NCBI RefSeq assembly: GCF_037975245.1
Contig: NC_092561.1
Coordinates: 16,993,001 to 17,057,000, forward strand
Length of the DNA: 64,000 bases
Source: Apostichopus japonicus
Lineage: Eukaryota > Echinodermata > Holothuroidea > Aspidochirotida > Stichopodidae
Reading direction: 5' to 3'
This document shows positions 16,010-55,180 of this stretch, piece after piece (position 1 is the first letter of the stretch; every line of letters starts with the position of its first letter). The translations under genes and the position numbers were made by a program. Under the pieces are notes generated by a model that had not been told where the DNA came from, did not search any database, and saw nothing but the letters and a program-made list of their open reading frames with translations.

Positions 16010-17205
16010 ACTTCGATGCTGTTGGCCAAAGGCCATTTCATCGCTCCACAGAAAAAAAACTCCATAAATTAGACTCCAGAAGTTACTGTTGAAAATCAAA
16101 CACTCCAGGTTTATCCTTCCAGAATGAATCAAGCCTCGATTTAAAACAGTTCAAAGAGGGAGAATTAACAACATGTTCTGGCAAAGAATTCCAATAACTA
16201 ATAGATCTCTGCGTAAAATTCTTTTGACGAAGCGAAGTGTTCACTCTAGGTTTAACTAACTTGTAGGAGTGACCCCTCGTAACTGATCCATGTGATCTTA
16301 TAAACAGGTCATGGGTAGAAATTATCAATCCATTCAGATACTTATATACAAACACCATATCACCTCTCAGACGTCTATGTGACAAGCAAAAAAGGTTCAG
16401 TTCTCGGAGTCTCTGTTCATAGGGTAGACTACATAATCCTGGCACTAATTTAGTTGCTCTGCGTTGCACAGATTCTATAGCCTCTGTTTCGCGACGATAA
16501 ATAGGTGACCAAGCTGGCTGACCATACTCCAAAACTGGTCTCACTAAGGCCTTATAAAGAAGCAACACGGTGTCTCTATCTAAATACCTAAAGGTCCTTC
16601 TGATTATTCCTAGAATGCTGTTGGCTTTGGAAACAATTGATGCAACATGCTCCCTAAAATTAAGGCCATTGTCAACAACCACACCAAGGTCCCGCTCTGA
16701 ATTCACAACTTCTAAACTTTGGCTTCCTCCATCATACTTTGGCATAGTGTAATGATAATCCAGATAAGAACAACCGACTCGAAGAACATGACATTTATCC
16801 GGGTGAAAGTGAAGTTGCCAAGTCACCGACCAGTTGTACATATTATCAATGTTATTTTGCAGAACATCACAGTCCCTTAACGAGTGCACAGCTTTATATA
16901 GTTTGGTATCATCCGCAAAAATTTTCACACTACACCCAGCTACGCTAGATGGCAGATCATTAATATACAGAAGGAACAGGATAGGGCCAAGTACACTACC
17001 CTGAGGGATTCCTCTTGTAATGTCAGCCCAGTCGGAAAGACTCCCTTCAACGCACACTCTTTGTTTACGCCTATATAAAAAATTGTCTAATCCACTGTAG
17101 CAAATCACCTGTAATTCCATATGACCTCACCTTCGCCAGCAATCGTTCATGTGGGACCTTGTCGAATGCTTTCATAAAGTCTGTGTAAACAACATCAATA
17201 CCGCA
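16010..17205 (-). pseudogene. 5'-truncated LINE (CR1/jockey-like) reverse transcriptase fragment
   Basis: The minus-strand frame 17120-16083 encodes the C-terminal two thirds of a non-LTR reverse transcriptase. Visible parts are the B motif (GIPQGSVLGPILFLLYIND), the catalytic box FADDTKLY, and the downstream thumb/connection with LLYKALVRPVLEYG and the terminal SYWNSLPEHVV..FKSRLD. The A motif (YTDFMKAFDKVPHERLL) lies in a different frame at about 17120-17197, so a one-base indel in a T run near 17081-17086 breaks the gene. Everything upstream (endonuclease, ORF1) is missing, which is the usual 5' truncation. A short 3' UTR leads into a (GAT)n tail at 16009-15976. The ATG at 17120 is out of the true frame and should not be read as a start. 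Confidence 0.93.
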
Positions 17206-19724: not shown

Positions 19725-21620
19725 AGAGTTTTGTAATTTTGACGAATTGTTGCATTTCATCAAAACGCGAATGCGATATGTCTCTTCTACGCTTCCGTAC
19801 ACAAGTCGTTTTACGAGGACACTGGCAGCAGACTAACAAATACTAAATAGGACATAACATCAACGTAAACTGGTGTGGCCGTATGGAACGCAATGTTCCA
19901 TACGGCTGGACGTTTGTTGGAGGATAAAATAAATTAATCTAAACCTCTGAGGAAACTGAATTTCATTCCAAAATATATTTTTTTCCCTTGAAAATTAATT
20001 TACGTAGCTGAAATTACACCACATCATAAATGGCACCATGTCCTACAGTACATCTTATATATAGTGAAATGATGTTAATTGCTTCCAAAAGGGTACATGA
20101 TATGGACGTAAACTAAGTTGTATCAAACGTTTGAGATAAAACGGGGGAATTTGCGAAAAACAAAAGTTTGAATTAGACCATACTGAACTTTTATCTTCGA
20201 GATGATACTTAATGTTTTAAGATAATATTGGTCTGATACGGGACTCGAAATGGGATATGAAATATTCACAATATTTAGATTAGGAGTAGGGGGGGGGGGG
20301 GGGTAGAGGGTTGGGATTCGGGTAGAATTTGACAAAAACAAGTTTTGAAGAGGAAAGTGGAATGAAAGGCATCTACCAGTAGGCCAAATACTAACGGTAA
20401 GCTGAGTAGCCTGGTAAAGTTGTCAAAACATATTTCTTACTTGTAACTCAAAATGCTATCAGTTATACAGGGAGTTAAAATGCTTGACTGACCGTGATTT
20501 TATGATTAAGTGTTAAACATAGCAAGATGATTAATTCCATAAAAGTAGGCTTTGCAGCAACATGTTGAACTTCTCACTTATTTGATCTATAAGGAATTGT
20601 CATTTTGTTGCAAATTATAAAACCGAGCAATTAATAACTTGTTGAAAATTGTTACCATGTATTGAAAAGTGTTTAACACTTTGACGGCACCTTATCGCTT
20701 CCATACTGATGAATTACGCTAACAATCAACTACCTGCAGCCTAACTATTTGTAAAGGGAAAGATTGAAAATATTAAACTAGATAAGATTTGGTTATCATT
20801 TGATACTCTACAGATGGTATAGGTCCTAGCACAAAGGTCGTGTATAGTGTGTCTGTATTTCGGTCACGTCGCCTGGACTCACAAATAATCGAAACTATAT
20901 GCGAAAGATACTAGAACGCGATAAGCCGCATTTATTATATTACACTCTCATATGCATGGCCCAAAACTTTTGTCTAATATTGACGCACAAAGGTTGGACT
21001 AAATTGGCTAATATTTGCATCAGGTATAACGGATGTTTCACTTTGTAACACCCACCTATAGCTAACGTAGCCTATACCAAACTTGGACATCAGCAAAGGC
21101 AGATATTAAGATAATACAAAGAATATACACGGTAAGTCTTTAACACCGTCACACAATATAGGGGGGAAAACGATATTTGTTCATTTGCACTTTTCTATAT
21201 AGTTTTTACAACAGACTGGACGCCGTTTGCGTTAAGCAAAATAGGGGGGAAATAGTGTTTATATATAATTGCGTTGTCGTTTTGTCTTCATTGCATAAGT
21301 ATCATAGACATATTACAGTCATAGCAGCTGATTGTGTATAAAGAATAATCTGAACAATTTTCACTCCAACCAAGTAAAGCAATGCCCTGTGTAAAATATG
21401 TGGAGTTATATTGCACCATTTCACTTATAATAATCCATATGCACTTAACCTAGTCACCGTCCAGCCACCCCCCCCCCCGGCCCCACTCTCTTTGAATAGA
21501 TTCTTTACACAACATTGTGTTTAAAGTTCTTCATTTAGCTATACAAGACAGACAGAATTAAAAAATACTCGTAGCCGCTTTTGATACATTAACTGATTTT
21601 TTCCCTTTTGTTATTCAGAG
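19725..21620. other. Upstream region of the TRIM gene
   Basis: No coding exon can be supported. A poly-G run lies at about 20287-20302 and a poly-C run at about 21467-21478. A splice-acceptor-like 'ccttttgttattcag' ends at 21618, two bases before the TRIM start codon, so a 5' UTR intron probably lies here. I could not find its donor. Confidence 0.4.
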
Positions 21621-22823
21621 ATGGCGGACAGTAAGCAAGTGAAGGACCTAAATGATAACTTCCTCCAATGCTCGATATGTATGGACGGCTACAAAAATCC
21701 CCGGATGTTACCATGCATACATAGTTTCTGTTTGAAATGCTTGGAAAAGCGCAACAGTGGTCTGCAAAATCAACCGTTTTCGTGTCCAACATGTCGGAAA
21801 CCGACAACTCTACCAGAAAATGGCGTTAAAGATCTACCGAGGAATTTTCTGTTGGTGAGCCTCATGGAGAGGTTAAACATGGCGGACTCGCCAAGTGCGT
21901 CATCTTCTTTAAGAATTTGTCATTTCTGCCAAGGTAGCGAAGGTATTCAACTATGCCTAGATTGCAAGTTTCATATCTGTTCAACGTGCAAAAAGGTTCA
22001 TGACCAAATACCGGATACCGGAGATCACACCGTAATCCCGATTGACAAACTTGCCGATGCCAAATTCATGACGGAAATACTCGCTACACAAATACCGCGG
22101 TGTCCTGATCACGTGAAGGAGAAACTGCGGTTTTTCTGTACATCGTGTAGTAAGCTTGTTTGTCGAGATTGTACGATCATCGATCACCGTGGTCACGAGT
22201 GCATTGAAGCTGAGAAGAGGTTTGACATTGTCAAGGGGACGTTGGAGGCAGCCCTGAGAGGCAGCGAGGATGAAGCCAAGTCGGTCCGCCAGATTAATGT
22301 CAAAGTCACCGCAGCTACAGAAAATGTTGACAAACACGTCAAAGATGCTAAAAGGGAAGTTGAGGAGCAGTACAACAAATTAAGCCAAAAACTGAAATCC
22401 GACCGAGATGCATTGAAGCACCAGTTGGATGAGATCGGAAGGAAAGAGTGTGTTAGCTTCGTGAAGAGCAAGGATGAAGTTGCAAACTGGATGGATGCGA
22501 CGAAGAACACTCAAACGGTGACGCAAATGATGCTGGAAGCAAATAACCGATGGGGTATGATTGAGATGGAGAAATACATACTTGATGCCTTCAAGAAGTC
22601 TTCCGAAGAGGAGAAGAGTTTGGAGCGGCCGCCGGTTGAACGTAAAAATGTGACCAGATTCAATATCATTACCACACGCAACAATAACGGTGACGGGGCT
22701 GGTAAGGAAGGGTCCGCAATCACGAAACGTAACATGATAGGTACAATGGACTGCGGAATCCGAGCCTCGTCAGGCAAAGCAATCAAAAACTGGAAGTTGA
22801 AGCTTGACGATCGTTACTAACAT
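21621..22823 (+). CDS. TRIM-family RING/B-box/coiled-coil protein (399 aa), likely E3 ubiquitin ligase
   Basis: A single open coding exon. The C3HC4 RING is complete at residues 17-58 (C17, C20, C32, H34, C37, C40, C55, C58). A B-box-1-like zinc site spans about 100-136 (CHFC, CLDC, CSTC, H127, H136). A B-box 2 spans 161-192 (C161, H164, C173, C176, C181, C184, H189, H192). A long charged helix at about 195-310 is the coiled coil that pairs TRIM subunits. The C-terminal ~90 residues are basic and polar with no NHL, filamin, PRY-SPRY or other reading domain, so it is a class V-like or C-terminally short TRIM. RING TRIMs pass ubiquitin from an E2 to substrates in the cytosol or nucleus. The substrate is unknown. 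The start follows an acceptor-like site and reads agATGGCG. Intronless coding is common in expanded invertebrate TRIM sets. I do not assign a symbol because TRIM2/3/32/56-like proteins share this front half. Confidence 0.93.
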
Positions 22824-28864: not shown

Positions 28865-29940
28865 GCGCCAGATTCAGCTAAACTTTTTACTTAACCATTA
28901 AGACTGGGCCGGGTTGAGACTGCGGGAGCAGATGAAGACAAAGTAAAATGAAAGAGTATATAACAGTTTTCTTCAGTTGCATTGCTAACCTGTTGAATGT
29001 AAGCATAATCAAAATCTCATACTTTGTTTTAATTTGATGTACAAATTGGTCAATTGAACTTTATGCCAGATTCTGAAGCAAAAGAGACAGATCCCTTGAC
29101 ATCAATAAAAACTGGAAGTCAACAGTGAGTTCCTTTACTGGTGTGACGTTTGAACATGATTAACAACATGATTAAATAAAAGAAGAATATTTTACCAAAT
29201 ACACATTGGAACATTTTAGCACTGCGCCCTGGCTCCGCCCCCCCCCCATCCCACCACTTTTTGAATGTACCACCTAGAAATTTTAGCAACTGACATGTGA
29301 TCTGAACAGAGATTATGGGTATTGAGTAACTCATCATTAGTCATGGCTGAGAATGGTACTACGTGCAATTGAACTTTAAATGTAAACTTTAAACCTTTAA
29401 AATGTAAGCTTTAAATTATGAGAAACCACTTATAATGTGCTTATTTTACAGAAGGGAATATTACTCAACCCATATTGTTAACATGTAGTGTGATATTGAA
29501 ATCCTTCAATATGGTAGATTTCAACCCTACTTGCCCACCACAAATCATTCATTTACCCCCCCCCCCCCCAGTATAGAGCAAGTTGTAGAGGGTAACCCTT
29601 TTAAATCCAAAGACAATCCAAGTGACATTCATTCGGTCATGTTTTTGTTATGACTTTAATATTTTAATCTTAATACTGTAATTTATGTATTGTACTGTCA
29701 TACGTGATCACTAAGTTAGCTGAAAACATGTGATAATCATTATTCTTATCATATTGATTGGCCGTGGTTGTGTGCATCTTTAGAGGTAAAGTTGAGAATT
29801 TTGGTCAGCTTTCCCAAGTCTAACACCCTCTGCTTTGTTTTCAGATGGTTCAGTGTGAATTTGATGTTATTTTCACTATTTGTATAGTTATAAACTAAAT
29901 CAATGTATCCTCTTTATCCATGGTGTTTTATTTTTCTTAG
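28865..29940. other. Region upstream of the recombinase-like gene
   Basis: I see no confident exon. An acceptor-like 'ctttgttttcag' followed by ATGGTTCAG at about 29844 could mark an upstream exon, but no donor in a fitting phase is evident. Poly-C runs lie at about 29239 and 29560. Confidence 0.35.
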
Positions 29941-30252
29941 TATCATTCATTAAGGAACAATGGACCTCTGGTGCATTGGAGAAGACTGTACTGGAGGAGG
30001 TGGAGAGGGTCCAGTCGGCTGGCTTCCCCCGTGGAGCAGGGGGCTTCTCCGCCTTCCACATGGAGATGGTGGACTCGGCCTTGGCCAGATATGGGAGCAG
30101 GCGGTCCACTGCCCTTATCGACGAGGGAGTGCGGCTGTGGCTGTCGCTGACGACGGCAGAGGGCCGTCTGTGGTCGTCGCAGCTCCTGCACTACCGGGCC
30201 AAGGCCGACATCATCACCTTCGTGGGAGCACGGCTGATGGGTCAGTTTATCG
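29941..30252 (+). other. Exon 1 of the recombinase-like gene: uncharacterised helical domain
   Basis: The acceptor is tttttcttag/ and the donor is atcg/gtatgtg. The exon encodes about 104 residues (FIKEQWTSGALEKTVLEEVE onwards) that are mainly helical in character, with no motif I recognise. The G+C content is far higher than in the flanking introns, as in real coding sequence. Two other frames are also open across this G+C-rich exon; they are shadows. Confidence 0.7.
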
Positions 30253-30654
30253 GTATGTGAGATATCACTTTACATTGACTTACCTTCTGTAGCTGAAAGA
30301 TGCTAGTTATTGATTGATTGATTTTTTTTTGGGAGGGGGGAGGGGGCAAGAAGGGAGGGTCAATTGTAGGTTGGGGAGGGAGGGTGAAGAAGATGTAAAA
30401 TGTTCAGTTAAAACGGGCAAAGTGTCTTTGTGTTGGCCATGTTCCTATGATGGGGTCAGGGGTAGAGCACATCTAACCGGCCAATTCAGGGCATACATCC
30501 CTCCCTTTAACCATCCAGATATTCAAAGTTTTGTCGGATATCAATAACCTCAGGGGATTATCTTTCGATGAAGGTGAAACTTACATTGTTTTGACTCAGC
30601 ATATGATAGACCAGAAAATGTTAACCTTATTTTTCTTTCTCTTCTTTTCCACAG

Positions 30655-32271
30655 AAAGACGCAGGGTAAGTTACAAGATTTGGTGGTAACGGGCCAGCCA
30701 GTGTGGGAAGAAAACTAAGGAATTCACAAAATAAAAGCAGATTTGGAAAAAAACATTATACAGATTATAACTGTCTAGAAATTCTGATATTCATCCTGCC
30801 GCAGGATTTATTCTGTTGGATAAATTCGGTTTTGTTGTTCCTTTGTCTTAACATTATACAACATCTCGATGAATATTTTATCACACATTACGTACCTTTA
30901 TTCTTCCCTTTCTTGTTTTAGAAAAAAATGCTATTTTTCTTTCAGTTAATGGAATGAAATTTTATTCTGTTACAGGAAAGAGGGAGCGACAGCTCTCAAA
31001 CGTCCTACGAAGACGAAGACGATGACGAAGACGAAGACGATGATGATGACAATGACGAAGACGAAGTTGAGGACTCGGAGGAGGAACCAAAGACAGAGGT
31101 CTCAGACGGTCTCACCATCATAGAAGATGACACGGACTTACCAGTGAGTGCCCTTTTTTAACTTTAGCCGAGTCAGGCATCATTTGTATTTAAATCTGAA
31201 AACAAAAGTTAATGTAAAATGATATGTTATACATAGTTCAGGTGCATAGTCAGTTTCTTGATTGGGGGAGGGGGCCATTCGGACTGACAAGCTTCCTAAT
31301 CTCATCCATGAATGGTATCATTCACAGACAGGCTGTGTCGTCGGTGAGAGACCGTTTGAGGACCGGACGATAGAAGATATAGAAAATGACAGAGTAAGTA
31401 AAATGAAAGAGTGATATTTTTCTTCAATTGTATTGCTTTATATATATTTAGGTATATATATATATTTATATATTTTTTTAATTTTTTTAAATATTTATTT
31501 ATATATTTTATAAGTTTATTTAAATATATATATATATTTATATATATCTATATATATAAACCTACATATATATATATATATATTTATATATACATATATA
31601 AATGTGTGTGTGTGTCATAAGACGTAAGACGTAGCTATTAAAAACTGTCGTTATCACTCAAATTTGTCTTCATAATCTAAATAGATTTCAAAATTGTTAG
31701 CTATTCCACATTGTTCCCCTTCCAGGCGATGGACATACTGAAGAGTCTGGGGACGGAGGCCGCAGAGTCCGACACTTCCAGGCCTCTTTTCAGCGACCAC
31801 GAATCGGTACTTAGCACACATTTGCCTTACTCATAAGGGTATGGGCCATTTCAGTTGGTAGGGTGGAGGGGTCAAAAACAGCTATGTCAGAATCTTGGCT
31901 GATTCTCACATTCCATGCCAATACGTTCAGAATAACCAAATATCTGGCTAATAAAAATATCATTTATATATATATATTCTTTGCACATTTATATTCCTCA
32001 GGTTGATGAGCTGGAAGTGAAGGAAGAGAGAAATGACCGGGACGATGCGGCGATGGAACAAGACAGGGATGGCGATGACGAATGGACAGGAGGAGAGGAC
32101 AGGGATGGGGATGACGAGGGGACAGGAGGAGAGGACAGGGATGGGGATGACGAGGGGACAGGAGGAGAGGACAGGGATGGGGATGACAAAGGACCGGACG
32201 TAGACAGGGATGGGGATGACGAGGGGACAGGACTAGCTAGCCGGGCGAAACGTCCTCGCCTTGGGGAACCG
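30655..32271 (+). other. Exons 2-6 of the recombinase-like gene: acidic region with a coding minisatellite
   Basis: Exon 2 is an 11-base microexon (30655-30665) that completes the split codon of exon 1 and adds Arg-Arg-Arg. Exon 3 (30976-31143) is a Glu/Asp-rich run. Exons 4 and 5 (31328-31393, 31726-31806) are short and in phase. Exon 6 (32002-32271) contains about four copies of a 36-base, 12-residue unit (GEDRDGDDEGTG) and ends with a basic RAKRPRLGEP patch that could be a nuclear localisation signal. Confidence 0.68.
31430..31615. repeat. TA-rich low-complexity run in intron 4 of the recombinase-like gene
   Basis: Nearly pure (TA)n/(T)n sequence ending in a short (TG)n. The Ile/Tyr-rich open frame over it is an artefact. 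Confidence 0.85.
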
Positions 32272-32364
32272 GTAAATATAATTCATTCATTTACCTTTAT
32301 GCTACTTTGATTTCCTGTGACCTGAATAAACATTTCTCTTCTACCTCTTTCATTTTAAACACAG

Positions 32365-32835
32365 AAACGGAAACCAAGGCAATGTCCTCTTTGTGAGGGC
32401 ATGTTCGTCCGGCTGGCGACGCACCTGAAGGACAGCCACAACGTGGCCATGAACAGGGACAACCGACTCCTGAACCAAGCCCGCACCCAGTAAGTCTTTT
32501 TATCGACACAAGTTGGTTCAAATTTTATCCTTGCTTATGTCGAGGTGTAGTATTTGAACAAATATCAGCTGATGTAGGAGACGTGAAAAGTAATTGTAAC
32601 ACTGCAAATGAATAACTGGATATGTATGTGCATCGGTCTGGCTTCTTCACAAATCATAAATCGATAGACACACTATTTAAGTGAGTGCATTTTTACTTTC
32701 AACAGAAAAGTCCAAAGGAGTGGGAAGGGAAAGGGGGCAGAAGGGAGGACCCTCCGTGATTGTCAGGTCCCTGGCTGCCCGTCAACGGCACTCCTGAGGA
32801 TCGACCAGCACCTCAGGAGGTGCCATGGTTTCGAA
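32365..32835 (+). other. Exons 7-8 of the recombinase-like gene: two C2H2-like zinc fingers
   Basis: Exon 7 encodes CPLCEGMFVRLATHLKDSH (C-x2-C-x9-H-x4-H) and exon 8 encodes CQVPGC..HLRRCH (C-x4-C-x10-H-x4-H). Both are short, non-Kruppel C2H2 fingers, likely to bind DNA or another protein. They lie one per exon, joined by a basic linker (QKVQRSGKGKGAEG). Confidence 0.75.
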
Positions 32836-33079
32836 GTAAGTGTCCACTATTCCAATCCATCTGCTTTTTGCAAACGTTATTTCGTATTAGTGACTTCACT
32901 AATTGTCTTTAAAATTCTGTAATATGCAAATGAGATACCAAAACAAACAGAAAGGTTGGTACCACTTCATCTTTGAATTAGTAGGCTCCACGGTCTAAAA
33001 CAGCATCGGACTCACCATACTTTCTCGGGAGGGGTCTTGAATACATTACAACTGAAATGGGGAAGACTAACCTACTCCC

Positions 33080-33290
33080 CTTCAACAGGCTTCCAGTCCA
33101 TGATAGGGGGAATGAAACCATGTGTAAATTCAAGAGGGAAAGGATCCTGCCCATCATCTCATCGTTTCCCGCCAAACATTTTTGTCTGTTTTTTGCCATT
33201 CATGAAGGTCGCAAGTTCCACAATTGTCGGCCACATGCCAGAAGTTCCACAATTGCTGGCCACAGGGTCAAAGGTTCCAAGCATTAGCAA
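33080..33290. repeat. Dispersed repeat 'gttccacaattg', copy in intron 8
   Basis: Shares 'ttccagtc..tgata..gg..aatgaaacca.gtgtaaattcaa' and the doublet 'agttccacaattg.tggccaca' with copies at 36003-36150 (intron 14), 41516-41894 and 42373-43276. It is a middle-repetitive family of unknown class with no coding frame. Confidence 0.7.
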
Positions 33291-33363
33291 GTCGGGTGAG
33301 CATTATTAAGTGTTGTTATACATGACTTTGTAATACATGCTTTCCTGTTTTTCTTTTTCTCAG

Positions 33364-34912
33364 AAATCCAGCCAAGAATATATGCTTTGGCTGGCGGCAG
33401 CCAGGGCTACCGTGCCGGAAACTGACCCCCCTTCCCCCGAGAAAGCAAAGCCTTCGGCCCACTCAAAAATTCCAAAGAAGTTGGATGACAAGGCGGTTTT
33501 AGGTATAAACTACATGCTACGATATTCTTTGTTATCCATCCTACCATGCAGGTATTCACACAATGCGAAAGTATCACATATTAATGTTATTGTGAGATAC
33601 TGATGAGCTGCGCTCTTAAAGGTGGATATGTCCATACAGCAAGCATTATTTCTTTTTACAAAAGATTTTGACAGCAATAAATATATCTTCATACGAATGT
33701 CTTGTTTACAGGCCCTCCTATTCTAATTATGAGTTAACTTTTCTTGTTACACAGACAGGTTCCTGAGCTAGCACCGCCGGCAAGTGGAGATACTGCTCCA
33801 GAGACTGGAGGTTAATTCCATTGCCGGTCTGGTCGACCCGCTGTCAGTACAGAGGTAGGTGACTTATCCGGTTTAATTATGGCCACAGTTTGAGTCGAAA
33901 ATTCGAATACGACACTAGATTTTCTCAAATTGTCAGTAATATGTTATATAGTGGCTCACCTATGCCGTCCAAACATCAATATAAAAACTCAAGAAGGGAT
34001 GAAAGTTGGAAACATTCACAGCAAATCCAGATATATATCACCTCACTGTCGTTGTAAAGGCCAGTTCACTGTCACGAAGAAGTGTGAAAACATAATTTGT
34101 TAATTTCAGTATAATTAATAGAAATGTATTCGACCAATTGCTCTAACACCATTCCAAAGTATCGATTCGTTCTTCTCTTACGCATACGTATCTTTTCATA
34201 TTTTTTTCTAACTCAGGACTGCAAATCTTCTCCGGGAAGACAAGAAGGCACCTAAGACAATTTCTAGCTACCTTCTGTCGATGAAACTGTTCTGTCACTT
34301 CCTCAGACTAAACGAGGAAGTGTCCAGGTCCGCCGGCGTAAAGCCCAAGGCCGCAAAGTGGACGGACCTGGCGGCAGAGCAGTTTCAGGTAGCCTTGCGC
34401 CCGGAGATAGATCGCCATGGCAGGAAAATTGCAAGCCAGATCAAAGGTAAGTTCCCTTCATATCTCTTACTTTGGGAACGAGGCTCGATATGTCATGTTG
34501 GGCAGACCGTTCAGTCAATCTCAAATTTTCTGCACCCCCCACCTTCTCTTCTGTTGGTGGCAGGTGAAATCTTAGGGGGGTTAAGAATTTTTGCAAAACA
34601 TTACATATTTTTAACAAATAAGTGGATGTATACCTTGAATAATCTTGATGAATTAAATTTTGGAAAACCCCTTTTGCATGCTCCTTAGGAAAAGCTGTTC
34701 CCCCTCCAGCCTCTCTGAGTGGGGCAAATCCTGATTCAACCCCCTGACCCACCACTTTTGTGTATGGGACTGGGATTTTCATGCAAAGGTTCACAAGTCT
34801 GTATGGATCTGATATAGAACTTTTCTTGTTTGTTTTGCAGATTCCATTCTGTCATCAGAAGAAATTGGGAAATTGAAAAGGCTTGCAACGAAAGAAGGAA
34901 TTGCCATGGCGG
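33364..34912 (+). other. Exons 9-12 of the recombinase-like gene: SAM-like core-binding domain
   Basis: Exons 33364-33502, 33755-33854, 34217-34446 and 34841-34912. The helix-rich sequence with 'KTISSYLLSMKLFCHFL' is typical of the N-terminal core-binding domain of phage-integrase-type recombinases. The TAG at 33769-33771 falls in the second of these exons, where the frame on both sides is otherwise coding-like. An alternative donor (gcg/gttttag) joined to an acceptor at 33771 would bypass it in phase, but that acceptor is poor. Confidence 0.62.
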
Positions 34913-35112
34913 GTGAGCTTAGTTTAAACCATATTTTAAGATCCTTTAAGATAAGAGAGTAGATACACATAGTTTAAAAGGAGTATGAGTACTGGTGGGT
35001 GGGGGAGCGGTCTTGGGGGTTGGGAGGGGAGGAAGAGCAACAAATGTGGGTTGGTCGCTACTGGGTATGTCATGCAAATGATCACATTTTCCATTCATAT
35101 TTTTCTTTACAG

Positions 35113-36356
35113 AGAATACAGACTCCATTCTGCGGTCCTCCGTGGCCATGAACAGGTTTCGAGACCTGCTCATGGCACTGATACTCATCAGTACTGGACA
35201 CCGCAGCGGTGTGGTACTGAACCTCACCGCTGGGGAATTCACGCGGGTCGAGCGGTTCTGTCTGCAGGATGGGTCGGTGAGGTGGACGATAAAAGTAAGA
35301 ACAAACATGCTTTGTGTTTTCATGGAACTGAATTATCTCGTCTTCCACTGTAGGACACCATAATATGGACAATATTTAGCTCACATCTTAGATATATTCT
35401 GTCGTTGCAGTTCGACATAAATAAATCCGCTCACTCCGACATCCCGTAGGTTAAAGGATGGTATGGTGGCGGGATGGAATTTATCGGCCAAGATTACACG
35501 TTTTGACTTTTACCTGTTGTTACTGACCTACTGTGATCGCACTGTACAATGCATTTGATTACCGATATTTTAATTGCTCATTTTATAGCACTTTTAGTGT
35601 AGCCTTTGATAGTACCATTGCTCCATTTTCACATTTGAATATTTTATTTGCCTTCAAAGATTTCAGACCATAAGACCCTGAAGTCGCATGGACCGACCCA
35701 CATTACGATAGACCAGACAACATATAACTTAATGTTGGTCTATTTTAATGTGGTTCGGCCCCATCTTTTGAGGGGTTGAGTGGCAACCGAGGCGGAGGAA
35801 AGGGACACCCCTTTCTTCCTCTCAAACAATGGGAACCGGGTGCGGAGGCTGAAGGCGCTGATGGTGGCAGTTGGGTTGTCGCTGGGTGTTGAGAACTTTT
35901 CTCCCCTGAACCTCAGGAAGACAGCCGCGACCTTGGTAAGATTTCAAAGTCCATAACATAATTGAATTATACCGACCCAAGAATAAATAGAACAACAAGT
36001 AAATTCAATGGGGGAAGGATTGTGCCCTCCAATACTGTATGTTACCTGCCTAAAGTCTTTGTTCATTTTTGCCTTTCCAGAGGGTCAACATTAGTTCCGC
36101 AATTGCTGGTCACAGAGCCAAAAGTTCCACAATTTTAGTTTGTGTTACCCTATTAACTGGAAACTGATATTGGATTCAAACTTTTTAATTACAGGCCGTT
36201 CAATCGGAGACAGCCGCTGGACGGTCCAGGGTCGCACAGGCTATGTCGCATACTGAGTACACTCAGGGGAGGTACTACAACGAGAGGCTGGCCGGCGAAC
36301 AGGCCTGCATAGCAGGTTCCATCGTCGCCGGTCTCCTCGATGGGACAAGAATGACA
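35113..36356 (+). other. Exons 13-15 of the recombinase-like gene: tyrosine-recombinase catalytic domain
   Basis: Exon 13 carries the first Arg in LMALILISTGHRSGVVLNLT. Exon 14 carries the Lys hairpin (SDHKTLKSHGPTHI) and the box SPLNLRKTAAT, which matches the HxLRHTFAT box with His replaced by Leu but Arg kept. Exon 15 carries MSHTEYTQGRYY, matching the GHxSxxTTxxYY box with the second His and the nucleophile Tyr kept. So R, K, R, H and Y of the catalytic set are present and one His is changed. The TGA at 35777-35779 lies between the Lys and the Arg boxes. Such enzymes cut and rejoin DNA through a 3'-phosphotyrosine; activity is not shown here. Confidence 0.72.
36003..36150. repeat. Dispersed repeat 'gttccacaattg', copy in intron 14
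   Basis: A shorter, diverged copy with 'gttccgcaattgctggtcacagagccaaaagttccacaatt'. It lies inside the recombinase-like gene's intron. Confidence 0.6.
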
Positions 36357-36522
36357 GTTTCCTGATGAGCGCAAGCTCTGTTTTGGCCATGTTGTCACAG
36401 TCTTAAGAAATTCATTTATCAAAAGAGTTCTTTTTATTTGAAATGGAGTCTTAGCATGATAGCAAATGGAATGAAAAAAATGATGGGCGTCTCAATATTG
36501 AACTTCCTTTTCTCTTACACAG

Positions 36523-37985
36523 ACACGCACTCAGTAACAACGAGCCACCCCAGCTGCCGAATTTTCAGATGTTGCCGGCCCCTCTGGACTTCCGCGGGTA
36601 GGTTTGTCATATTTCTGATCCTATTTTACACAATGCCGTGTATTACGTTGATCGAGATTGTTTTTGTTAAGCCAGACGAGATCAAAAGTTCAACCCTATT
36701 GCTTTTATGTGGAATAATCTTGCCCTTGAAATTCATGCAGGCACGCCACTACGATAAAACTTGCCGAGCATTTTACACTTGCTGAAAGGGGTCTTGCGCC
36801 ACTGAATCTTCGATACTTGTAGTTCGACTCAACAGATTGACATGTAAATATTGGCGTTATAATCTCTGACTCGTTGTTGGTTTTCCTTGATTACAGCCGA
36901 CTCCTTCAGCCTCTCACCCAGGAACTCCTCCCAAGCGGCAGATGTCTTCAGATGAAGACGAACTGCCAGAGGTAATTTTTTATCTTCATAACCCCCTGAG
37001 ATTGACAGGACTGACACAACCAAAGCCTTAAGAGGTCAATTATGTTACATTAATCCATTAATGGTCCTGTCACGTGTCATTGCCACGACCGAAATATAAA
37101 AAAAAGTGCACACTGACAAAGTATGTTTAACATACACTTAAATGATATATGTACATACTGAATGTATCCTTTCTTAGAAAGCCACATTCTTAACGACTCT
37201 TTTTACGTTTCTATTTATTTTCTAGTTTGTTCCGCCAACGCCCCTGAGGAGACTGGTAAGTAAAAAGTTTCAAGTATATGTACATCAGTATAAAAAGATA
37301 TGACATATCAAAATAGGAGTCAAAAGCAAATTCACTGTAATAAATTGAGATATAAGTTAGAGCTAGGATTGACAATGACTGAAATTTGTTTAACCGCACC
37401 GTGAATACAAAAACCCTATAGACAAACCAATTCGAGTGTCGAGTAGTTCTCGATCTGGATGCATTGGCCCTATTTCTCACATTGCACGTAGTCTTTGGAG
37501 ACGTTATTTCACCTCGGGCTCGTTGCTGAATGGGTGTACTTTGTTAGCTCTGTCAAGTTCCTTAGCTTCCCTTTCAAATTCATCTTTAGTCTCATTGCTA
37601 ACCCTTGCTTAATAATGATATTTAAATCCCAATATCATAATGCTACCTCTGATTTGAAGCTACAAGGATTAATATACTAATTTAATCTGTATTTTTTTCT
37701 TTTCAGCCCACTTACACCCCTGATGTCGAGGATGCACCTCCAGTTGCTGCACCGCCCACTCGAGTCAGGGCGTTATTTCAGGACTCCGATGTGTCTATGC
37801 TGCTACATCTCTATCGAGAAACTGTAAAAAGATCGAATCAAAAGATCACGAAAAAAGATGTAGTTAGAAAGATGCATCGGGAGAATGCACACCTGGCCGG
37901 ATGGACGGTGCAGCAGCTTTATGACAAGCTGAGGAAGCTCCTCGAAAAGGAAGAGGACAAGAACTTCCATGGCGATCCTAAATAG
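36523..37985 (+). other. Exons 16-19 of the recombinase-like gene: linker and C-terminal helical domain
   Basis: Exons 36523-36597 (TAA at 36535-36537), 36897-36971 and 37226-37255 (30 bases) encode a Pro/Ser-rich linker (AAEFSDVAGPSGLPRPTPSA, then SSDEDELPEFVPPTP). Exon 37707-37985 encodes a basic helical region (LLHLYRETVKRSNQKITKKD onwards) of homeodomain-like or Myb-like character, then TAG. The last exon is plainly coding in style. Confidence 0.62.
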
Positions 37986-38104
37986 GTAGGTTAGCGAATG
38001 TTCCTTTGCACAACAATAACAATTTATTATTACCGTTTCAAGCTATCACTCAACTACAAGGATGAGTGTCGGTGTGGCAATCTAATGTTTGTTTTGCTTA
38101 CAGA

Positions 38105-38262
38105 TGCCCCCATGTATTCTTAATGAACTGTTGTACTCCCCATCCCCTCCCTTTGAAATGTATGGTGCTGCTTAAGGTTTGCATTGCATTCTTAATGAAC
38201 TGTTGTACTCCCCACCCCCGCCCTTTGAAATGTATGGTGCTGCTTAAGGTTTGCATTGCCTA
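38105..38262. repeat. Two tandem copies of about 76 bp after the recombinase-like gene
   Basis: The unit 'ttcttaatgaactgttgtactccccaccccc..ccctttgaaatgtatggtgctgcttaaggtttgcattgc' occurs twice. It may lie in the 3' flank or 3' UTR. Confidence 0.85.
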
Positions 38263-39180: not shown

Positions 39181-41289
39181 CCCAGCAAAAAATGTACCCT
39201 AATTTTACCGCGGTAAACTATGGTAAATGTGTGGTAAATAGGGTAAATGTGTGGTAAAATTGTGGTAAAATCAACCGTGGTACATTTACCGCAGTTTTAC
39301 CATGGTAATACCGCGGTAAAAGTATGGTAAAAGTGCGGTACATTTACTGCGGTAAATTTACCGCAGTTTTACCATGGTTTTACCGCGGTAAAAGTGTGGT
39401 ACAGTTACTACGGTAAATTTACCACAGTTTTACCATGGTATTACCGCGGTAAAAGTCGGGTAAAAGTGGGGTACATTTACCGCGGTAATTTTACCGCAGT
39501 TTTACCATGGTTTTACCGCGGTAAAAGTGTGGTACATTTACTACGGTAAATTTACCACAGTTTTACCATGGTATTACCGCGGTAAAAGTAGGGTAAAAGT
39601 GTGGTACATTTACCGCGGTAAATTTACCGCAGTTTTACCATGATATTACCACGGTATAAGTAGGGTAAAAGTGCGGTACATTTACTACGGTAAATTAACC
39701 ACAGTTTTACCATGGTATTACCGCGGTAAAAGTAGGGTAACAGCGTGGTACATTTACTACGGTAAATTTACCATAGTTTTACCATGATATTACTGTAGTA
39801 AAAGTAGGGTAAGTTTATATGGTACATAAACTACATATGTGAAATTCCTACAATTGTGCCATGATTAACCACAGTAAAAATAGGGTAAAACTATATGGTG
39901 CAATTATACTATGGTAAATTTACCATATTTGTACCATGATTTTACCACAGTAGAACATATATGGGTCACACTATGAAACATGATGGTACATTTACAGCAA
40001 TTTTCCATGATTTTGTCCCATTTTTTTGCAATACTGATATGACAAACCTTTTGTTCTATTCATATCTTAATGTTGGCAATATTAATTACCTGTGGATATT
40101 AGTTGAATAAAGAAGAGAGACAAACTGCTATTCCTATATGTTATAGTATGCATCTCTTTTCCTAAAAAATAACAAGCAGAGGATAGATACATAGAGAATT
40201 CCTTCATGGAATCCCTGATATATTTGAGAAGAGACAACAATTAATTCTTTTTTCATTATTAGGGAGAACATAAAAGCCTTTAAAATGAAAAAAGAACTAT
40301 ATAAACTAGCACACATAAGGCATAGCTTCTGTGCCTCAACACTGTGGCACACAAAAATTGACCAATCAGTGTCCTCAGATTTGGGTATTCTCTGTCAGGT
40401 CCATTAAATGACTTGACAAGTCTATGTATCTATGATCAGAGTACTCTTTCTATTTAAAACAATTCTTTGAGGACAATAAGAGATGAAAAGTCCAATCTGG
40501 ACTACCAATTAAGTCAAAAGAAGAGAGTCAGGAATCATACCATCTAGGGTAATTGAAATTCAACAAAGCTTTCTCATGTGTGAAACCTCCATGGATTTGA
40601 TGAATTAAAAACTGTTGCATTCTACAACTGAGGACTTACATGTCAGGCTTACAACCATTACAATAAGGGTAAAGGCATATAGCCAAATTATGAAACAGTA
40701 CACTGATGGGTGAAATTCAAAGAAATATATGGTATACATGCTGATTGAAGTTAGGACAAAATCATGCTCAATGTTAGGTAAAACTGTCCTACAATTAGTG
40801 TAAAATCATGGTAAATTGAGGTAAAACTAAGGTAAAAGCGTAGTAAATCTACGGTAAAATTGGGGTAAAAGCGTGGTAAAAGTATGGTAAATTGAGGTAA
40901 AACTACGGTAAAAGTGTGGTAAATCTACGGTAAAATTGGGGTAAAAGAACGGTAAACTGTGGTAAAAGCGTGGTAAATATATGGTAAAATTGGGGTAAAA
41001 GAACGGTAAAACTGTGGTAAATTTGGGGTAAAAGCGTAGTAAAAGTGTAGTAAAAGCGCGGTAAAAGTATGGTAACACCGTGGTAAATTGCGGTAAAATT
41101 GGGGTAAAAGTGAGGTAAAACCATGGTAAATTTGTGGTAATTTACTGCGGTAAACCGCGGTTTACCGCGTCCATAGGGCCAAAACACCGCGGTAATGTAC
41201 AACAAATTTACCGCGTTTTTACCCCGGTTTTACCGGGGTAAAAGTGTGGTATGTTACCGCGGTAAATTTGAGGTACATTTTTTCCTGGG
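39181..41289. mobile_element. Foldback-type DNA transposon with arms made of GGTAAA motifs
   Basis: It starts CCCAGCAAAAAATGTACC and ends GGTACATTTTTTCCTGGG, an 18-base inverted repeat with one mismatch. The exact 10-bp duplication TGGTTGGTTG lies at 39171-39180 and 41290-41299. The left arm (about 39205-39990) and right arm (about 40770-41280) consist of dozens of GGTAAA/TTTACC motifs, often as the palindrome TTTACCGCGGTAAA, in opposite overall orientation. The unique middle (about 40000-40760) encodes nothing recognisable. Duplications of 9-11 bp with long arms suggest a Mutator-like or Foldback element. Repetitive Phe/Tyr/Thr-rich minus-strand frames in the right arm are artefacts. Confidence 0.85.
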
Positions 41290-42372: not shown

Positions 42373-43276
42373 TCCTTCCAGTCAGTGATAATGGTGTATG
42401 AAATCGACGTGTCAATTCAATACGAAAAGGATTCTGCCGCACCCGCTATACATTTCCCACCTAAAAGCGAAGTTCCACAATTGTTGGCCACAGAGCCAAA
42501 AGTTCCACAATTGTTGGCCACAGACAGGGGCGTAGCGAGCGGGGGGGGGGTGTGGGGGGTGTCACACCCCCCCAATAATTTGGTCGCTGTCGGCAAATTT
42601 TGGGTCTGTCGGCAAAAGGAGAAAAGGTGAAGAGAGCGGAAGGGGAAGAAAGAAGGAAAGCTGAATGGAGAACGGGAGCTTCTTCCGTGCCAAATTTGAC
42701 TTAAAATATGCACCAGATTGCATCTAAGGACGTTTCAAAACTAAAATTTTCCAAAGGGGAGGGGTAGACCCCCTACCCTTAGACCCCTCCCCCATTTCAG
42801 TCACCACTTCCAGATCCCTCGGCAAATCAAATTTGACTTAAAATATGCACCAGGTTGCATCTAAGGACGTTTCAAAACTAAAAATTTTCCAAAGGGGAGG
42901 GGGACACCCCCTACCCTTAGACCCCTCCCCCATTTCAGTCACCACTTCCAGATCCGTCGGCAAGTCAAATTCTCCACACCCCCCCCCAACAAAAAACCCT
43001 TCCCTACGCCCCAGGCCACAGAGCCAAAAGTTCCACAATTGTTGGCTGGTCAATTTGTGTCACAGAATATGCATTGTATGTTCACGGCAACCTCCAGCCC
43101 CCGCTTACATCTGTATTGATGCTAAGCTTCCAACATATGTGCCCGTCTTCCACACCTATCAGTTTGTTCAATTAAAAGAAATTGTATTTTTATATGCATT
43201 GAGCTTGCCCACAGGAACCTTGTCAAGCAAGCTTTTTCATCCTATAATCATCAGCCCCCGCTTGTATGATGTGTTA
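42373..43276. repeat. Dispersed repeat 'gttccacaattg', long copy 2, split by a MITE
   Basis: The repeat is interrupted at 42525-43014 by the hAT-type MITE, whose 8-bp duplication GCCACAGA is copied from the repeat's own 'ggccacagagccaaaag'. The MITE therefore arrived after this repeat was in place. Confidence 0.85.
42525..43014. mobile_element. hAT-type MITE (490 bp), short sister of 2746-3810
   Basis: It starts CAGGGGCGTAGCGAGC and ends CCCTACGCCCCAG. The exact 8-bp duplication GCCACAGA lies at 42517-42524 and 43015-43022. It matches the element at 2746-3810 at both ends but holds only two of the ~137-bp internal units (starting near 42691 and 42828). Confidence 0.92.
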
Positions 43277-50265: not shown

Positions 50266-51058
50266 TGTAAAGTAATATTTATAAGCATGTCTCAGTTAGG
50301 TTGATACTAAAACCAGTCAAGAACATCAACAGTAGTGTATGGAGCAATGCTACAAATCACATACAGTAATGTAGCCTAGCATGTTGCACGGCCAGTTAAA
50401 ATATACAGTTCACTAATGTCAGCTCCGATTGCTACAACAAAAGGGACAAAAAGCCTGAAGCTAAGCTTTTGGCTGCCAACTATGCTAAAAAGGGAACCTG
50501 CACTAAGTATATATTTCACAACCAATCAAGTGTTTAATCACTCTCAAGCCTGTTGTAACCAAACTCAGGTTGGGATATTTTATAGCCTATTAAAATGATC
50601 CATTGGGCACTTCCTACATTCAAGGAACTGTTTGATTCTTGAGGTCAGGAAAAGTACAGTAGTTGTTTCAGCATGTAGTACTTTTAGTACAATTACAGTT
50701 GAATGTAATTTCTTATGGCTAATGATGCCATGCTACAGACTGTGCAATTTCAGCACTCCTACATCCCCCCACCCACCCACCCCCACCCTCTCCCCCCAAA
50801 TGTCCAACCTTGCATCGAAGACAGAACAGTATGGTTGAACAAGCCTTGTAAATATAGACATTTTCATGATGTTTTTACTACATTCAACAGTAAAAAGCCT
50901 GCTAAATACTGCCACTACTGTAATACATTATTAAAAGTTCAAAGTTACTGGTAGGCATACATGTACACTCTAGTTATACTAAGAGTGCAATCAAACAGTA
51001 TGAGCTCTTGAGGGTACTTATGTGTGCAGCACTTACTGTGTACTGCACAACCTTGTAG

Positions 51059-52240
51059 GAGGGAGCTGCTGGTAACCAGAAGTAACCACTGGATATTGTA
51101 CACGTATTATTATGTATGCCTAGTTAGTAGTAGGAAGGAGCTGCTGGTAACCAGAAGTAACCACTGGATATTATACAGGTATTATTATGTATGCCTAGTT
51201 AGTAGTAGGAGGGAGCTGCTGGTAACCAGAAGTAACCACTGGATATTATACAGGTATTATTATGTATGCCTAGTTAGTAGTAGGAGGGAGCTGCTGGTAA
51301 CCAGAAGTAACCACTGGATATTATACAGGTATAATTATGTACATGCCTAATTAGTAGTAGCAGGGAGTTGCTGGTAACCAGAAGTAACCACTGGATATTA
51401 TACAGGTATTATTATGTTTGCCTAGTTAGTAGTAGTAGGGAGCTGCTGGTAACCAGAAGTAACCACTGGATGTTATACAGGTATTATTATGTATGCCTAT
51501 TCAGTGGTAGGAGGTAGCTGCTGATAACCAGAAGTAACCACTGGATATTATACAGTTATTATTATGTATGCCTAGTTAGTAGTAGGAGGGAGCTGCTGGT
51601 AACCAGAAGTAACCACTGGATATTATACAGGTATTATTATGTATGCCTAGTTAGTAGTAGGAGGGAGCTGCTGGTAACCAGAAGTAACCACTGGATATTA
51701 TACAGGTATAATTATGTACATGCCTAATTAGTAGTAGCAGGGAGTTGCTGGTAACCAGAAGTAACCACTGGATATTATACAGGTATTATTATGTTTGCCT
51801 AGTTAGTAGTAGTAGGGAGCTGCTGGTAACCAGAAGTAACCACTGGATGTTATACAGGTATTATTATGTATGCCTATTTAGTGGTAGGAGGTAGCTGCTG
51901 ATAACCACAAGTAACCACTGGATATTATACAGTTATTATTATGTATGCCTAGTTAGTAGTAGGAGGGAGCTGCTGGTAACCAGAAGTAACCACTGGATAT
52001 TATACAGTTATTATTATGTATGCCTAGTTAGTAGTAGGAGGGAGCTGCTGGTAACCAGAAGTAACCACTGGATATTATACAGGTATTATTATGTATGCGT
52101 AGTTAGTAGTAGGAAGGAGCTGCTGGTAACCAGAAGTAACCACTGGATATTCTTATGTAAGCCTAGTTAGTAGTAGGACTAGGAGGGAGCTGCTGGTAAC
52201 CAGAAGTACTGTAGCCACTGGATATTATACAGGTATTATT
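51059..52240. repeat. 75-bp satellite array, about 16 copies, with a five-unit higher-order period
   Basis: Unit 'gggagctgctggtaaccagaagtaaccactggatattatacaggtattattatgtatgcctagttagtagtagga'. Marked variants (cagggagttgctgg, atgtttgcc, tagctgctgataacc) recur in the same order 377-378 bp apart (for example 51364 and 51741), so five units were duplicated as a block. The unit is a multiple of three, so a repetitive frame stays open; I do not regard it as coding. Confidence 0.92.
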
Positions 52241-53099
52241 ATGATGCAGATTAAGGCATCCACACTATATTTTAGTTTTATCACCATGTTTGCATATTCT
52301 ACATTTCTGTACTGTATGTTTTGATGATATTCAAGACAAATACAAGAGGTGGATCTGGATGATAAGATTTTGTCATCCTGTCGTTTGCTTACATTAATGT
52401 AATTTGTACATAGCAGATCTCTTTTTCTGGCCAAAAATGTTATCAAATATCCCCAAACACAGTAAGATTGCAGTCAATGAAGCTAGAATACCATATTAAC
52501 GTGAATATTCATAGTACAGTAAACCAGTTGTGCTGTGTCAAAAGTTAAAAAAAATTCAGTACTTACACAGATTTGATTATTAAAACATGCATATTATTCA
52601 CAAGGGAACTAAATGACAATTGTTGCTTTATTTAATACAGACAGGTCTCTGATAAATTTGTATTAATAACAATCTAGTTCCTTTTTATGAATGTAAAGTA
52701 TTGTCGATCTTGCCATACAAAAAATGCAAGGTAATACTGGTGAAAGCAGTCAATTTATGAAAATATTGAAAACGTCATATTACTCATCGACCTGCATAGC
52801 CGAATGATTTGATTCAAAGAAATGAGGAAGTATTTCAAAAAGCAGATGTTTCCTGTCTGCTGAGCATAGATAGAGGAACTGTAGTATTGTGTTATGTAAT
52901 GCATCAGGACGTACCTAGCACCACCAGCAATCATACATTAACACAGTCTTGATTATTAATACAGAGCCTGCATTCAACATGATTACTTTAAAGCAATATT
53001 TCTTGTCGCCATCAAATTCTCTTTCAAAGAAAGCAACCTATTGTTGTACAGGTAAGTTTGTTTCATTTGCATATAAGAATCTGGGCGGATTGACAAGGT
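52241..53099. other. Spacer between two satellite arrays
   Basis: AT-rich. No supported gene. Confidence 0.4.
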
Positions 53100-55180
53100 A
53101 ATGTGTAATTTACAGTGTAGTGTATAGTTACTGTAGTACCTACCTATACTAAGTACTATGTAATGTACAATGTTTAGTTTGTGTAATATACAGTGCAGTA
53201 TATATGGTTAGTTACTGTAGTACCTATCTACCTATACTAAGGTACTGTGCAATGTACAGTGTTTAGTTTGTGTAATGTACAGTGCAGTATATCTGGTTAG
53301 TTACTGTAGTACCTACCTATACCAAGGTACTGTGCAATGTACAATGTTTAGTTTGTGTATTGTATAGTGCAGTATATATGGTTAGTTACTGTAGTACCTA
53401 CCTATACCAAGGTACTGTGCAATGTACAATGTTTAGTTTGTGTAATGTACAGTGCAGTATATATGGTTAGTTACTGTAGTACCTACCTATACTAAGGTAC
53501 TGTGCAATGTACAATGTTTAGTTTGTGTAATGTACAGTGCAGTATATAGGTTAGTTACTGTAGTACCTACCTATACTAAGGTACTGTGCAATGTACAATG
53601 TTTAGTTTGTGTATTGTACAGTGCAGTATATATGGTTAGTTACTGTAGTACCTATCTATACCAAGGTACTGTGCAATGTACAATGTTTAGTTTGTGTAAT
53701 GTACAGTGCAGTATATAGGTTAGTTACTGTAGTACCTACCTATACCAAGGTACTGTGCAATGTACAATGTTTAGTTTGTGTATTGTACAGTGCAGTATAT
53801 ATGGTTAGTTACTGTAGTACCTACCTATACCAAGGTACTGTGCAATGTACAATGTTTAGTTTGTGTATTGTACAGTGCAGTATGTATGGTTAGTTACTGT
53901 AGTACCTACCTATACTAAGGTACTGTGCAATGTACAATGTTTAGTTTGTGTATTGTATAGTGCAGTATATATGGTTAGTTACTGTAGTACCTACCTATAC
54001 CAAGGTACTGTGCAATGTACAATGTTTAGTTTGTGTATTGTATAGTGCAGTATATATGGTTAGTTACTGTAGTACCTACCTATACTAAGGTACTGTGCAA
54101 TGTACAATGTTTAGTTTGTGTATTGTACAGTGCAGTATATATGGTTAGTTACTGTAGTACCTACCTATACTAAGGTACTGTGCAATGTACAATGTTTAGT
54201 TTGTGTAATGTACAGTGCAGTATATAGGTTAGTTACTGTAGTACCTACCTATACCAAGGTACTGTGCAATGTACAATGTTTAGTTTGTGTATTGTACAGT
54301 GCAGTATATATGGTTAGTTACTGTAGTACCTACCTATACTAAGGTACTGTGCAATGTACAATGTTTAGTTTGTGTAATGTACAGTGCAGTATATAGGTTA
54401 GTTACTGTAGTACCTACCTATACCAAGGTACTGTGCAATGTACAATGTTTAGTTTGTGTATTGTATAGTGCAGTATATATGGTTAGTTACTGTAGTACCT
54501 ACCTATACCAAGGTACTGTGCAATGTACAATGTTTAGTTTGTGTATTGTATAGTGCAGTATATATGGTTAGTTACTGTAGTACCTACCTATACTAAGGTA
54601 CTGTGCAATGTACAATGTTTAGTTTGTGTATTGTACAGTGCAGTATATATGGTTAGTTACTGTAGTACCTATCTATACCAAGGTACTGTGCAATGTACAA
54701 TGTTTAGTTTGTGTAATGTACAGTGCAGTATATAGGTTAGTTACTGTAGTACCTACCTATACCAAGGTACTGTGCAATGTACAATGTTTAGTTTGTGTAT
54801 TGTATAGTGCAGTATATATGGTTAGTTACTGTAGTACCTACCTATACTAAGGTACTGTGCAATGTACAATGTTTAGTTTGTGTATTGTACAGTGCAGTAT
54901 ATATATGGTTAGTTACTGTAGTACCTATCTATACCAAGGTACTGTGCAATGTACAATGTTTAGTTTGTGTAATGTACAGTGCAGTATATAGGTTAGTTAC
55001 TGTAGTACCTACCTATACCAAGGTACTGTGCAATGTACAATGTTTAGTTTGTGTATTGTACAGTGCAGTATATATGGTTAGTTACTGTAGTACCTACCTA
55101 TACTAAGGTACTGTGCAATGTACAATGTTTAGTTTGTGTAATGTACAGTGCAGTATATAGGTTAGTTACTGTAACTCCTA
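53100..55180. repeat. 85-bp satellite array, about 24 copies
   Basis: Unit 'gtactgtgcaatgtacaatgtttagtttgtgtattgtacagtgcagtatatatggttagttactgtagtacctacctataccaag'. Units fall into variant classes (tatatgg/tataggt, attgtac/aatgtac/attgtat), and some class orders repeat every two or three units (about 169 and 254 bp). Because 3 x 85 is divisible by three, open frames recur across the array. They are artefacts. Confidence 0.93.

Follow-up and report, generated by a model that had tools for sequence, protein, structure and literature searches.

A broken 19-exon copy of a putative tyrosine recombinase gene and its family in Apostichopus japonicus

The window analysed here is a stretch of 64,000 nucleotides from the holothurian Apostichopus japonicus (RefSeq assembly GCF_037975245.1, contig NC_092561.1), corresponding to C1:16993001-17057000 in the genome searched (671,581,487 bases in 35 contigs, designated by C and a number). 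On its plus strand, at 29941-37985, it carries a gene of 19 exons with the active-site motifs of a tyrosine recombinase. This copy, called A, is a pseudogene, a recently inactivated member of a family from which further copies were fetched on contig C1. The first paralogue comprises, besides A, the copies B (at 16.98 Mb), C (at 15.99 Mb), D (at 21.24 Mb), E (at 21.27 Mb) and G (at 21.34 Mb), and a second paralogue, F, lies at 16.69 Mb.

Exons and lesions of the window copy

A preliminary description of the window had proposed 19 exons, including one of 11 bases at 30655-30665, and both the splice sites and the equal borders in copy C bear this out. The borders given below for exons 15 to 19 were corrected with copy C. 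AG acceptors and GT donors are present everywhere apart from the donor after exon 15, which reads AC.

Exon 1 (29941-30252) begins mid-codon and no start codon was found in the window copy; at least one 5' exon is therefore missing. It encodes an N-terminal helical domain of unassigned kind (SFIKEQWTSGALE...), which shares 41% identity with the corresponding exon of F and was modelled by AF2 at low confidence (predicted local distance difference test, pLDDT, 66.6). The 11-base microexon that follows as exon 2 is equal in length and borders in copy C, and its place is taken by an exon of 26 bases in F. An acidic region is formed by exons 3-6 (30976-31143, 31328-31393, 31726-31806 and 32002-32271), the last of which contains a 36-base tandem repeat. 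Exons 7 and 8 (32365-32489 and 32706-32835) encode two short fingers, CxxC and CxxxxC with HLxxxH. By this Cys/His pattern the two C2H2-like fingers described earlier are present, and their Cys and His were also recognised by eye in the translations of F and of the related loci on C19, C22 and C5; no Pfam zinc-finger match was obtained for the fingers of the window copy.

Exon 9 (33364-33502), a linker delimited by its splice sites, is followed by the broken exon 10 (33755-33854) and by exon 11 (34217-34446), the core-binding (SAM-like) recombinase region, named by its position. Exon 12 (34841-34912) comprises 72 bases and has equal length in C, F and the loci C16, C17a and C19 introduced below. 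Arg-I is encoded in exon 13 (35113-35294; GHRSG, codon 35202-35204), Lys and Arg-II in exon 14 (35660-35935; SDHK, 35672-35674, and NLRKT, 35915-35917), and His and Tyr in exon 15 (36195-36344; SHTEY, 36249-36251, and RYY, 36273-36278). The residues are named (Arg-I, Lys, Arg-II, His-II, His-III and Tyr) as is usual for such enzymes. Exon 16 (36523-36597) and the linker exons 17 and 18 (36897-36971 and 37226-37255) lead to exon 19 (37707-37985), which contains a C-terminal helical domain and the stop codon. The AF2 model of exon 19 has four helices, again at low confidence (pLDDT 68), and neither this model nor that of exon 1 matched a PDB fold at E<=0.001. The C-terminal helical region is 98% alike in A and C, 51% alike in F and A, and weakly recognisable in C16 (28%) and C22 (20%). 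The R, K, R, H and Y motifs, the core-binding exon, the acidic region and the C-terminal helical region of the preliminary description were all found again.

Four lesions distinguish the window copy. Exon 10 has 51 bases fewer than in C, B and D and contains an in-frame TAG (33769-33771). In exon 14 an in-frame TGA (35777-35779) stands at a sense codon of C, B, D and E, and the donor after exon 15 (36345-36346) reads AC in the window copy compared with GT in the same four copies. Finally, exon 16 contains a TAA (36535-36537) where C has a sense codon. The window therefore holds no single frame of about 926 codons such as had been claimed. Exons 15-19 are all in phase 0 by sequence, and equal borders give an open translation in copy C. 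In B, D and E the second paralogue follows exon 15, and exons 16-19 were for that reason considered as part of another gene; this was ruled out by copy C, in which the frame of exon 15 continues through exons 16-19.

Recombinase core, introns and selection

Comparison of the core of the window protein with the genome gave at least 39 matches at E<=0.001, a lower bound owing to exon-by-exon matching, and relatives are present on nine contigs. Seven core members were aligned, namely C, F, C16:35.28 Mb, C17:21.08 Mb (C17a), C19:16.20 Mb, C22:14 kb and C17:18.34 Mb (C17b), the others being 19-40% identical to C. The reading through the core is clean in C, F and C16; frameshifts and a stop occur in C17a and in a further locus at C20:8.05 Mb, and C19 needs a one-base exon in the aligner.

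The integrase family PHROG_216 was matched by three of the seven members (best 1.4e-6, for core residues 71-277 of copy C), PHROG_1, also an integrase family, by one (E=0.004) and PF00589 by two (best 0.0012). A profile of the seven members, compared with the PDB, matched the archaeal XerC-like recombinase 4a8e at 9.8e-4, a value added up from two weak stretches, of which the better by itself reaches 0.081, followed by XerA 5hxy at 0.053 and, at 0.31 and 0.61, by two unrelated proteins. Read in exact reverse, the C core had no match among the PHROGs at E<=1. With a hand-made scrambled protein, four PHROGs of unknown function came up at 0.047-0.43; matches of that level therefore mean nothing. 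Viral contigs searched with the alignment yielded three pattern matches and no relative. Arg-I, Lys, His-III and Tyr are present in all seven members and Arg-II in six, and judged from these residues and the profile matches the core of the family is assigned to the tyrosine recombinases. The lack of any HMM match, which would have refuted the preliminary description, did not arise for copy C.

The suggestion of an old gene was supported, as a family whose members share intron positions. C and F, whose cores are 40% identical, have eight introns in common by column and phase; C has 18 introns in all and F 15. Of the four core introns of C, all four are found in C16, three in F and three in C19: those at columns 82 and 106 (phase 1) are common to C, F, C16 and C19, the one at column 168 to C, C16 and C19, and the one at column 267 to C, F and C16. 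C17a has equal intron columns, offset by a frameshift. A different pattern with one intron near column 267 is seen in C22 and C17b.

The ratio of amino-acid-changing to silent substitution rates (dN/dS) was determined over exons 8-15 (for E over exons 11-15) after exclusion of codons with stops or gaps; the 10 pairs among copies A-E all gave values of 0.14-0.33. Between A and C there are 11 amino-acid to 21 silent changes, compared with about 70% amino-acid changes expected neutrally (p=4e-5). With B=D as outgroup, 23 of these 32 differing codons could be assigned to a branch, nine being unresolved: the C branch has 4 amino-acid to 13 silent changes (p=1e-4 against the neutral 70%), and on the A branch the count is 2 to 3, with one stop in addition. 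Gene conversion among the copies could disturb both the branch and the selection counts. The divergence between A and C is higher in exons (77/2767, 2.8%) than in introns (106/5572, 1.9%), which was considered, and set aside, as evidence against constraint. CpG density is 57.7 per kb in exons versus 16.8 per kb in introns, and a recount showed that 31 of 75 exon and 13 of 108 intron differences touch CpG.

Duplicated chromosome blocks and a satellite-associated clan

Copy C is 95.3% identical to the window over 29764-38185 and contains all 19 exons with equal borders. Its reading frame stays open through 951 whole codons to the stop, the first coding exon not being found. F comprises 16 exons and 912 aligned codons free of stops and frameshifts, its end not being followed to the stop codon. 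Among the copies fetched, six of the first and four of the second paralogue, these are the only open ones, one per paralogue. In B and D exon 3 is interrupted by a stop and exon 1 by frameshifts, E is devoid of its 5' part and carries a stop in exon 11, and G has lost the portion equivalent to window 34730-36449. The second paralogue is also broken at B, D and E, with 4, 2 and 3 stops and 2, 5 and 6 frameshifts, respectively, in the aligner's reading.

The C1 copies are duplicated chromosome blocks and not single element insertions. B and D are nearly collinear over about 17 kb including flanks, with large pieces at 95-96% identity and one rearrangement, and E matches B over about 11 kb. An open reading frame (ORF) of the window at 21597-22820 (plus strand, single exon, TRIM-like by eye) recurs with 99% identity at C1:21.332 Mb, and the DNA directly 5' of the recombinase gene recurs, also at 99%, at C1:21.340 Mb, the spacing between the two being 7.80 versus 7.87 kb. 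Transposon ends were not seen around the C1 copies; the homology of B/D and of the window block continues into the flanks and the neighbouring ORF.

More distant relatives of this TRIM-like ORF (about 70% identical) are located at C9:31.74-31.81 Mb. Arrays of GGTAAA/TTTACC lie directly 3' of the recombinase gene (39279-39812 and 40800-41140), and long tandem arrays with units of 75, 85 and 113 bases occupy 51055-52247, 53125-55197 and 60017-62922 of the window, the last being 2.9 kb long. A nearly identical 138-base tandem unit is found at two sites 39 kb apart (2918-3711 and 42691-42971).

The third clan of the family has a different setting. The core of the C22 member recovered 11 loci in the genome, of which those on C22, C5, C18 and C2 lie less than about 60 kb from the contig start, while C17 has six and C16 one. 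For an 851-base stretch beside the C22 gene (C22:10900-11750) a first look gave 484 candidates, of which 40 were scored and found to be 91-100% identical. Those with coordinates below 65 kb are on the plus strand, those with high coordinates on the minus strand; on C2, C5, C18 and C22 copies lie near contig ends, and C2 starts with a CCCTAA array. The stretch is probably a subtelomeric satellite oriented towards the contig ends, in which the recombinase genes of this clan are embedded. It is absent from the window and from the fetched C1 loci (blastn, E<=1e-8). Near the start of C22 a tandem array of about 3.7 kb (C22:5001-8680) consists of a 54-base unit at >99% identity.

It is possible, though doubtful, that the family is an intron-bearing lineage of tyrosine-recombinase transposons with a Crypton-like life style, whose protein moves its own gene, the C1 copies being old insertions later copied together with their surroundings. 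The high copy number with many dead and few open members, the catalytic set retained in distant members and the distribution over nine contigs would fit such a lineage. So would C17:18.34 Mb, where a gene-bearing stretch of 3.4 kb, bounded by a 15-base direct repeat with one mismatch, interrupts sequence that is continuous at C22. However, satellite pieces repeat within this stretch and on both sides of it; rearrangement of the array therefore explains the junction as well as an insertion does, and it was dropped as proof of insertion. The C1 copies lack sharp ends, as described above, and the introns shared across 30-40% identity also argue against mobile elements.

Relation to known systems and role of the family

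Like the phage and Xer tyrosine recombinases (PHROG_216, PF00589, 4a8e), the family combines a core-binding with a catalytic region and carries Arg, Lys, Arg, His and Tyr in this order. It differs from them by Leu, Ile, Val or Thr in place of His-II in all seven members, by its large N- and C-terminal regions and by the 19 exons of A and C. The residue three before Arg-II, usually His (or Lys), varies within the tyrosine recombinase superfamily.

Tyrosine-recombinase sequences of animals are further known from the Cryptons (CryptonA/I) and the DUF3504 genes (WOC/ZMYM, KCTD1, KIAA1958, QRICH1). According to PMC3212892, some of these sequences represent intron-containing host genes, a C-terminal domain is absent from animal Cryptons, and the DUF3504 genes lack most of the catalytic tetrad. 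The present family differs in having a C-terminal domain and in retaining most of the catalytic residues. The preliminary description had linked the window gene to Cryptons. This link is not supported: none of the seven members matches DUF3504 (PF12012) at E<=1, and a genome-wide Pfam scan gave 16 matches to PF00589 and nine to DUF3504, none at a family locus (an exon-by-exon scan, which may miss weak ones). The DUF3504 matches all lie outside the family loci, and sequences of this type therefore appear to be a separate group in the same genome. Cryptons of the fungal type are bounded by short direct repeats; for the C1 copies no ends were found, and a 15-base repeat was seen at one locus of the third clan, in satellite DNA. 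Three consecutive DUF3504 matches (best 3.1e-20) at C21:18739339-18740956 perhaps represent the WOC/ZMYM-type gene of this genome, the name being a guess.

The DIRS/Ngaro retrotransposons and their derivatives, ALOG and LAP2alpha, likewise possess a tyrosine recombinase in animals. LAP2alpha is counted among these derivatives by its origin. Broken copies are described from marine animals in the paper on ALOG (PMC3537659). No Pfam match to reverse transcriptase or RNase H, the hallmark of this group, was found in exons 1-2 and 7-19, the range scanned. On the opposite strand of the window, 12.8 kb from the gene, an ORF of 347 codons (16083-17126, minus strand) resembles, by eye, a LINE-type reverse transcriptase. 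Unnamed multi-copy proteins of fish and corals, with zinc fingers, a recombinase core and a SANT-like tail, show a similar order of parts. Judged by title and opening of the abstract, none of the papers listed in literature searches deals with this recombinase family; the broadest of these searches say little.

A domesticated DNA-binding regulator, in which the recombinase fold is retained for DNA binding alone as proposed for DUF3504 genes, is unlikely. Zinc fingers, acidic region and an additional helical domain are transcription-factor-like, and the loss of His-II would agree with such a function. Yet Lys, His-III and Tyr in all seven members and Arg-II in six are maintained at 19-40% identity to C, whereas the DUF3504 genes are without most of the tetrad (PMC3212892). 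A chance chain of exons, to which the three in-frame stops and the lost donor might point, is hardly worth considering: all 19 exons with their borders recur in the open copy C, which also matches recombinase profiles and therefore excludes chance, and silent changes predominate.

The best reading of the sequences is an old, resident family of intron-rich recombinases with an active site under selection. It is on balance probable that the window copy is a lately inactivated member of such a family, encoding putative nuclear tyrosine recombinases. The preliminary description had left open the choice between a host gene and a long-resident recombinase lineage; segmental duplication together with purifying selection favours a resident gene family, of benefit presumably to the host rather than to an element.

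Several points weigh against this reading. The window copy is dead, and breaks occur in five of the six fetched copies of the first paralogue and in three of the four of the second, as would also be expected of an element family in decay; active transposon families, too, show purifying selection among their copies. The position three before Arg-II is L, I, T, T, V, T and T in the seven members, and with His-II missing throughout full catalysis is therefore not assured. The match to 4a8e is composite, and exon choices beyond A and C come from our own aligner guided by family members. Recombinase profiles are matched by copy C and its relatives (PHROG_216, PF00589), but the window protein itself had no Pfam match in exons 1-2, 7-15 and 16-19, the parts scanned. 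A Pfam match of the window protein to AXH at 0.17 was dismissed as chance.

The encoded protein consists, in this order, of the N-terminal helical domain, the acidic stretch, two zinc fingers, the core-binding domain, the catalytic domain and the C-terminal helical domain. In the open members C and F the protein would be guided to its DNA targets by the fingers and the core-binding domain, and probably by the terminal domains as well. The Arg, Lys, Arg, His and Tyr set could then cut and rejoin strands via a phosphotyrosine bond, in the manner of Xer and phage integrases. The family grows through segmental duplication of chromosome blocks and loses copies by decay, the window copy being one such loss. 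It is an improbable, more far-reaching idea that the genome keeps catalytically competent recombinases as multi-exon genes under active-site selection, and that the sister clan housed in the subtelomeric satellite may cut and rejoin satellite or chromosome-end DNA there, as a system of programmed or maintenance recombination.

Should the catalytic set, the introns, the DNA-binding regions and the purifying selection hold, the family would be one of few examples of site-specific recombinases resident in animals, for which the two open copies, C and F, offer test material. Judged by its four lesions the window copy was lost recently, a clear example of birth and death within this family. The sister copies are open and bear marks of selection, and this animal may therefore keep a phage-like recombinase as an ordinary gene.

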